Source: Nitrospira sp. BO4
Lineage (GTDB): Bacteria; Nitrospirota; Nitrospiria; Nitrospirales; Nitrospiraceae
DNA: 64,000 bases
Assembly (NCBI GenBank): GCA_030144965.1
Contig: JAMPUU010000010.1
Coordinates: forward strand, 1 to 64,000
Direction of reading: 5' to 3'
A program made the position numbers and the translations under genes. The notes under the pieces are model-generated. The model made no database searches. It had not been told where the DNA came from and saw only the letters and a list, made by a program, of their open reading frames with translations. Position 1 is the stretch's first letter; every line of letters begins with the position of its first letter. Of this stretch, positions 1 to 1,786 are shown piece after piece.

Positions 1-52
1 CCGGCTTCGAGTCATACCACTGTGAAATATCGTACCCTCGGTCACTTGCCAT
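1..52 (-). CDS. amoC: Ammonia monooxygenase subunit C, N-terminal fragment cut by the window edge
   Basis: Read on the minus strand, an AAGGAGG ribosome binding site seven bases upstream introduces an ATG and 17 codons: MASDRGYDISQWYDSKP. The pattern RGYD-S-WYDSK is, as I recall, the characteristic N-terminus of AmoC proteins from bacterial ammonia oxidisers, just before the first membrane helix. AmoC is an integral membrane subunit of the copper-dependent ammonia monooxygenase, which oxidises ammonia to hydroxylamine. Only the start is visible, so subunit type (amoC or a related pmoC/pxmC) and operon content cannot be confirmed here. The gene starts 44 bases downstream of the neighbouring minus-strand gene and probably shares its transcript. 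Confidence 0.75.
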   Translation of the reverse strand, partial: MASDRGYDISQWYDSKP

Positions 53-96: not shown

Positions 97-756
97 TCAC
101 GACTGACGGGAGACCCGCCAGTTCCTATATCGCTTTGATTTCGAAAACTCGTATGCAAGTAAAGCAAGAAGAAGCAGGATGGTCAACGGCCCAATGGCTT
201 TTCGGGCAATTGTCGCATAATCGATTTGCTGTACTCGCAACAGATAGGACAACGGACTAGACCCTTCTGGAGTGATGATCAACTTATACAGACCCTTAAC
301 CAGCTTGGCTTCGCCTCTGACTACTCCATCCAGGTGAATCGTCGGCGGCCAGTACGCGACTGTGTCATCTTCTGTCGTCTCGTTGAGTCCTCTGACTACC
401 CGCACTCCCACCGGCATCGTGCGCAGACCTGGATCCACGAGATCGACCACAAGAAACGTCTCTCCTTCACCAGGAATATCCGTACAATACTGGGCTTTTG
501 CTTCATTCTGCGGCTGATACGCGTTGAAATGGACGAGACTACCTCCGACCCGTTGGGCACAGCTATCTTCATCGATTGCCACATTGCCATGAGCACTTGC
601 TACACCAGGAAGAAGGGCCATAACAAACACGAGCACGCGGAGAACTCGATGGGAATGGGCTCTTTGTTTACGTCTCACGATACAGAAGCGTAAGGGCACG
701 CGATACATCGCCCCAGCGATAATGCTCAGTGCAAACACTGCAAGGAACATTGTCAT
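97..756 (-). CDS. Periplasmic membrane-anchored protein upstream of amoC
   Basis: 219 residues. The N-terminus has a hydrophobic stretch, an arginine-rich segment and then a signal-like region ending in GVASA before HGNVAIDEDSC. A periplasmic domain of about 130 residues follows, with two or three cysteines, a YQPQ motif and an LRTMPVGVRVVRG segment. A C-terminal membrane helix lies near residues 186-204, followed by a basic tail. The layout (signal, periplasmic domain starting with His, C-terminal anchor) recalls the AmoD/AmoE/PmoD accessory proteins found near amo and pmo genes, but I cannot verify homology. It is co-directional with amoC 44 bases away. A GGGGGTGAAGG ribosome site supports the start at 756. 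A downstream start at the arginine-rich segment is possible because two N-terminal hydrophobic stretches are unusual. Confidence 0.8.
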   Translation of the reverse strand: MTMFLAVFALSIIAGAMYRVPLRFCIVRRKQRAHSHRVLRVLVFVMALLPGVASAHGNVAIDEDSCAQRVGGSLVHFNAYQPQNEAKAQYCTDIPGEGETFLVVDLVDPGLRTMPVGVRVVRGLNETTEDDTVAYWPPTIHLDGVVRGEAKLVKGLYKLIITPEGSSPLSYLLRVQQIDYATIARKAIGPLTILLLLALLAYEFSKSKRYRNWRVSRQS

Positions 757-820
757 CGACCTTCACCCCCTTTCTTCATAGTGAAAGCATACTCCTTGAA
801 ATATGAAGGCTGCATTAGAG

Positions 821-844
821 AATCATGAAGAATTCTTCATGATT
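821..844. promoter_or_regulatory. 24-bp perfect palindrome, likely operator
   Basis: The half-site AATCATGAAGAA is followed immediately by its exact reverse complement, giving a loopless 24-bp palindrome 65-88 bases upstream of the start at 756. With no loop and no T-run it is not a terminator. It sits between the divergent-facing amo-linked gene and the 3' end of ttcA, so a dimeric regulator controlling the amo-linked transcript is the simplest reading. Confidence 0.6.
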
Positions 845-919: not shown

Positions 920-1786
920 TTATGAGAGAGGCGGTTCCTGGTCTAGCCAGGCATCACCCTCAGTCTGAGTACTTACCGCTGATGCAAGCGACTTGAAATC
1001 AAAGAGTCGAGGATCCATTAGGAGAGCAGGTGCGACGTTCCCGACCGCTGCAGCAATGCTGTCAGAACAGCCGGGCGAGGCTCGCTCCCATTCCTGGAGC
1101 AACGCCTTCACTTTTTTTCGTTTCAAGTCTTCCTGCGACCCACAGAGATCGCATGGAATGATTGGGAACGCCCGCAGCTCGGCATATCGCGCAAGGTCAG
1201 TCTCTTTGACCATAGCCAGCGGTCGAATGACGATGTGTCGCCCATCCTTTGAACGGAGCTTCGGTGGGATGGCCTTCAGTTTTCCCGAATAGAAGAGATT
1301 CAAAAACAAGGTTTCAATAATGTCGTCGCGGTGATGGCCAAGCGCGATCTTCGTGGCGCCAAGCTCAGTGGCGATGCGATACAAGTGTCCTCTCCGTAAC
1401 CGTGAGCACAATGAGCACGTCGTTTGCCCTTCCGGGATCAGTCGCTTCACGATCGAATAGGTATCACGGGATTCTATGTGGAAAGGAATTCCACGGTCGG
1501 ACAGGTATTGTGGGAGTACATGTTCCGGAAACCCCGGCTGCCGTTGGTCGAGATTGACGGCGACCACGTCGAAACGAATAGGAGCCCGTCGCTGTAAAAC
1601 GAGTAAAATATCCAGCAACCCGTAACTGTCTTTACCACCTGACAGGCAGACCATCACCTTGTCGCCATCGTCGATGAGGTGATAGTCAGCAATCGCTTGG
1701 CCCACCAGCCGGCAAAGGCGTGTTTGCATCTTCTCTGTTTCTTCGTCTAATTTGTGCAAGAGTGTTGGCGTGAGCGGGACAAGCAT
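920..1786 (-). CDS. ttcA: tRNA 2-thiocytidine(32) synthetase TtcA
   Basis: 288 residues. TtcA thiolates cytidine 32 of certain tRNAs using ATP and an iron-sulfur cluster in the cytoplasm. The PP-loop ATP motif SGGKDS is near residue 50, CSLC near 123-126 and CDLCG near 213-217 as in the family, and ALGHHRDD lies between them. Length is close to the usual family size. The start at 1786 (ATG) gives the expected N-terminal helix before the PP-loop. It is divergent from the phosphatase gene at 1854, so a 67-base region must hold both promoters. Confidence 0.93.

Follow-up and report, generated by a model that had tools for sequence, protein, structure and literature searches.

Why ammonia oxidisers keep spare copies of amoC is an open question, and the genetics of comammox Nitrospira is scant. 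Non-operonal amoC genes have been reported in comammox organisms, e.g. in Ca. N. kreftii (four copies; PMC8115096), and a stress-regulated singleton, amoC3, is known from Nitrosomonas europaea, as cited in PMC6311188. The stretch of DNA analysed here, a window of 64,000 nucleotides from the genome of Nitrospira sp. BO4 (G000), begins within an amoC-like gene and raises the question of what this copy belongs to and how it may be controlled.

The preliminary description of the window had taken its first 52 nucleotides for the start of an amoC-like gene with a ribosome-binding site, and this has been confirmed. As read from the sequence, an ATG on the minus strand (positions 52-50) is preceded, with a spacing of 7 nt (ATTCACT), by the ribosome-binding site AAGGAGG (66-60); other amoC copies have similar upstream sites. 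The 17 codons of the amoC frame, MASDRGYDISQWYDSKP (1-52, minus strand), remain open to base 2 of the window. The window comprises positions 1-64000 of contig C10, and because its left edge is base 1, a true end of the contig, the gene is truncated by the assembly. The continuation was found in a genome of the same species, G065 (two contigs, the main one of 4.54 Mb), which came from a scan of the genus, matches the window over positions 1-1786 at 1778 of 1786 bases and closes the gap at the window edge. The full ORF in this genome (L020:11427-12236, minus strand) encodes 269 amino acids, which match Pfam AmoC with 353 bits (E 8e-106; cut-off 26.7), NCBIfam AmoC_BACT (NF041641) with 337 bits (cut-off 319) and the solved chains of AMO subunit C with E about 1e-115, a strength far beyond chance. 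The family assignment is that of the same-species ORF, the window itself holding 17 codons.

It had also been expected that amoC, once extended to the left, would lead into amoA and amoB. In G065 amoC does continue, but neither amoA nor amoB follows; a DUF1989 gene and a GntA-like gene, both convergent, are found instead. The amoC of the window is a stand-alone copy outside the amoCAB operon, which is located about 700 kb away on G065 in the order bfr-bfr-amoE-amoD-amoD-copC-copD-amoC-amoA-amoB. G065 contains six amoC genes and a second amoCA unit, followed by a gene for an FtsH-type protease. At the DNA level, four of the amoC copies share 98.4-100% identity, and 97.8-100% at third positions, as compared with about 75-80% at third positions between orthologous amoC genes of different species, which points to gene conversion.

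The near-identity of these four copies also explains why the assembly breaks at amoC. In G000, the same amoC start of about 50 nt is found at the ends of four further contigs (C19, C24, C16 and C21), which differ from one another in the sequence upstream of it; the start of amoB lies 31 bases into C12, and the sole intact amoC is a divergent copy on C30. No match to amoA was found in the G000 assembly, an absence that is attributable to repeat collapse, since G065 has two amoCA units. Contig ends at amoC are the pattern of a collapsed repeat, and the same cause accounts for the breaks at amoC in published MAGs of comammox organisms, in which extra copies are thereby hidden. Many MAGs stop in or near amoC at this very place, and of the 41 database loci, 29 break off no more than 900 nt from the gene that precedes it, amoE2.

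The assignment of the organism to comammox Nitrospira, made earlier from the window, is borne out by the AmoC frame and by the gene content of the species. G000 carries amoB and hao, and amoA is seen in G065, which completes amoCAB; the hao cluster of G000 comprises haoAB with cytochromes c554 and cM552 (a NapC/NirT-type cytochrome), and the genome has two NxrA-like genes, of which the one tested, with 1145 aa, scores 1583 bits against NXR subunit A (7b04). A search of the genome for PF14711, the C-terminal family of NarH, gave no match; this family was judged to be a wrong marker for Nitrospira NXR, and TIGR03479 together with the PDB match was used instead. Complete nitrification, the further claim of the preliminary description, is shown by this genome content, but not by the amoC of the window alone. 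In the AmoC tree the sequence groups with RCA (Rifle clade A) and other Nitrospira MAGs with support of 97/95, apart from RSF3 and Nitrosovibrio, which places it fairly firmly in clade A, in a tree with long outgroup branches. The amoC gene and the comammox organism are thus correctly called and of a known kind; as far as the literature searched shows, the two-gene unit with a shared control box, to which this amoC would belong, has not been described.

The partner of amoC in this unit is a gene located 44 nt upstream of it (97-756, minus strand), which encodes a protein of 219 aa with no Pfam match above the cut-off. Its product is 59-60% identical to the AmoE of the operon and about 25% identical to both AmoD proteins. 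The profile of the AmoE family matches PmoD (6cpd) at E 4e-22, and AmoE2 has two invariant cysteines, C66 and C91; by homology and by these cysteines it is assigned to the PmoD/AmoD/AmoE family. Comammox organisms typically have one amoE and two amoD (PMC12903955), and amoE2 is a second amoE, beyond that complement. It resembles AmoD, AmoE and PmoD (6cpd; PMC7584546) also in the hydrophobic N-terminal signal and the C-terminal helix that are visible in its sequence, but differs from them in the location of its gene outside the operon and in an N-terminal extension (window 690-756). This extension resembles a stand-alone membrane miniprotein of 26-27 aa (L136, L137), as if a miniprotein gene had been fused to amoE.

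The order amoE2-amoC is found in 30 of the 41 database loci, including UW-LDO-01, a strain of Ca. N. nitrosa according to its own paper, and the pairing is seen in most clade A loci. In G064, G056 and WA-bin32 the two genes stand directly behind amoC-amoA-FtsH. The gap of 44 nt suggests that amoE2 and amoC would be co-transcribed as a single transcript. The gene upstream of them in the window encodes a TtcA/TilS-like PP-loop protein (920-1786, minus strand; Pfam ATP_bind_3) and lies outside the unit; ttcA is the usual neighbour (20 loci), and FtsH is found at this place in others.

Between ttcA and amoE2 lies a predicted promoter box (about 784-844, minus strand), delineated by an alignment of 29 loci and by the profile R1. 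The aligned element spans 60 nt with 19 invariant columns, and pairwise identity is 65-80% within it but 27-28% in the preceding 60 nt. An inverted half-site (835-840) is followed by TTCAT-like repeats, three in number and spaced 11 bp apart (825-830, 814-818 and 803-808), and, 11 nt from the last repeat, by a putative -10-like hexamer, TATGCT (786-791, minus strand), read from the sequence, of which GTATG is conserved across loci. The upstream part of the box contains the perfect 24-bp palindrome AATCATGAAGAATTCTTCATGATT (821-844), the only perfect palindrome of at least 18 bp in the window, which relatives also have in the corresponding position before amoE2. The profile finds the box of the window with E 1.2e-17 in its own genome, the site being included in the training set. 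Among the 40 database loci of the AmoE2 type, a profile search recovered the box in 28, three of them outside the training set (L042, L064 and L086; E 1.8e-9, 4.9e-9 and 2.2e-7), and recognised none in 12; no box was found by this search in the operon loci or in AOB of the database. The box is kept before amoE2-amoC irrespective of whether ttcA, FtsH or a divergent gene for a thioredoxin-like protein is located upstream. G017, from which amoE2 has been deleted, has the box immediately in front of amoC, an arrangement which suggests that the box serves amoC. Two relatives have a second box just behind ttcA (L065:6595 and L068:4581), and an insertion of about 3 kb in front of amoE2.

The position of the palindrome between ttcA and amoE2, together with its perfect inverted symmetry, might indicate a terminator or a regulator of ttcA, as it does lie behind that gene in the window. 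This role was considered and rejected, as the palindrome keeps its place before amoE2 also where FtsH or another gene is located upstream (L026, L028, L047 and L143), and the direct repeats and the -10-like site are conserved as well; we regard it as very improbable.

The profile, trained on amoE2 boxes only, was run on 79 genomes of the genus and again on eight of them. Nearly all genomes with amoC have sites with E below 1e-5; the exceptions are G043 (best E 2.1e-5) and G019, in which amoC is present and no box was found. Fifteen of the 79 genomes have no box or only weak sites (E above 0.02), and all of them but G019 were amoC-negative in the scan of the genus; a closed amoC-less relative, G040, likewise has no box by profile search. 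Several amoC-negative genomes do have the box; the three that were inspected all carry amoE2, followed by the start of an amoC in two, and such genomes are probably comammox MAGs that lost amoC in assembly. Pattern matches in G069 and G064 (561682) do not have the repeat architecture and were taken as chance.

Further sites in G000 include C21:73346 (E 2.7e-7), C26:58346 (5.5e-6), C4:2020 (3e-4) and several with E from 1e-3 to 7e-3. The gene families downstream of such sites recur between species, despite their absence from the training set; the repeats in the recovered sites are partly built in by the profile, while the recurrence of the gene families is not. Behind the boxes we find miniproteins of the MISFIEVFLLAAIFGVLYAMLQLARR, MDANWLTFGAAILGLVVAAAFVYKKGQQP and MMTIFFALLALTAVLGVMYKAVYLDRE types, the last of which resembles the N-terminus of AmoE2, as well as a lipoprotein (MRMIGLFAMCVLLEACTT), a protein of about 106 aa encoded beside a DEAD-box helicase and a secreted protein of 93 aa. 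The predicted box is shared by several genes, as is characteristic of a response-regulator regulon. No box was found in a search of the amoCAB operon, the other amoC copies and hao, and the distribution suggests that the stand-alone amoC would be switched on separately from the operon. In G065 (L199:4774-5112), a stretch of 3 kb holds three boxes, and for two of these no gene is obvious downstream.

Direct repeats with an 11-bp period and a -10 site about 11 nt further on resemble PhoB-type boxes and fit activation of the OmpR/PhoB type. The box of the window shares with the boxes of that family the 11-bp direct repeats upstream of the -10 site, but differs in its TTCAT half-site and in the additional inverted half-site, and its binding protein is only putative. 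We infer that a response regulator of the OmpR/PhoB type might bind it at the -35 region and activate the unit. The best candidate would be encoded by the two-component pair adjoining one of the sites: immediately in front of the box on C21 of G000, and of its counterparts in G001, G017 and G056, are genes for a CopR-like regulator (L018:1037-1732) and for a sensor kinase. The two proteins are closest to CztR/SilR/CopR and CztS/SilS/CopS and score below the curated cut-offs (250 vs 279 and 239 vs 292 bits), so copper sensing is a guess. Alternatively, the box may be bound by a NarL-type regulator such as the one encoded at L025:6482-7129. Regulators of this type adjoin amoCA-FtsH; in G064, G056 and WA-bin32 the pair shares a cluster with the box and amoE2-amoC, and a similar pair stands beside another box (L200); given the PhoB-like look of the triple repeat and its -10 site and the CopR-like pair directly before the box in four genomes, we consider this a lesser, though realistic, possibility.

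It may also be that the amoC of the window is an ordinary redundant copy, kept alike by gene conversion for the sake of dosage, and that the box is simply part of constitutive promoters in this lineage. The near-identity of the four copies down to their third positions agrees with this, as do the extra amoC genes reported for comammox and AOB (PMC8115096, PMC6311188). Yet the other copies and the operon have no box, and the box is common to specific families of non-amo genes, which makes this explanation unlikely. We consider it probable that positions 1-844 of the window are the left part of a two-gene unit, amoE2-amoC, of clade A-type comammox organisms, separate from the operon and preceded by a putative regulated box. 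Such a unit would supply additional AmoC and a PmoD-like, putatively copper-binding protein from outside amoCAB, and could replace or repair a subunit of AMO under conditions in which it is not the main operon that is induced. Among the further targets that the same regulator would activate are small membrane proteins and an outer-membrane-type lipoprotein, probably in response to envelope or copper stress, as suggested by the analogy to the singleton amoC of Nitrosomonas that is linked to stress (cited in PMC6311188); the box is probably the site of a response regulator of such a regulon. That clade A has a dedicated two-component regulon in which amoE2-amoC, membrane miniproteins of about 26 aa, the lipoprotein and the gene beside the DEAD-box helicase form a programme of AMO maintenance or stress, apart from the main amo operon, appears to us about evenly balanced.

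With the non-operonal amoC of Ca. N. kreftii, the copy of the window has in common that it is an additional, full-length gene of a comammox genome located outside amoCAB. It is distinguished by its partner, a second amoE, and by its shared box, neither of which was found in the literature searched. With amoC3 of N. europaea, as cited in PMC6311188, it shares the position of a single amoC outside the operon, with its own control shown there and predicted here. However, amoC3 is divergent and controlled by a sigma factor, whereas the copy of the window is 98% identical to that of the operon and has a repeat box upstream; the divergent amoC of this genome is another gene, on C30. A combined search for Nitrospira, amoC, stress and sigma E returned no report in the literature searched, the coverage of which was incomplete. 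A box before one specific amoC copy, common to a small set of genes, makes the question of spare copies testable in existing enrichment cultures.

At two places in G065 (L023:8430-10184 and L025:9317-11089), and also in G001, G064 and G056, the gene immediately after amoC or amoCA encodes an FtsH-type membrane protease, which perhaps serves quality control of AMO; comammox, amoC and FtsH together gave no report in the same, incompletely covered literature. Of the two convergent genes downstream of the stand-alone amoC of G065, which occupy L020:9776-11208, one encodes a GntA-like N-hydroxylase, and the other, the DUF1989 gene, is found near the stand-alone amoC of several relatives too. The divergent amoC on C30 (L016:7326-8132) is preceded by genes for sigma-54-type regulators and for a sensor kinase, and is followed by a Rieske oxygenase-like gene and a gene for a very large oxidase-like protein (1585 aa), with similar neighbours in G064.
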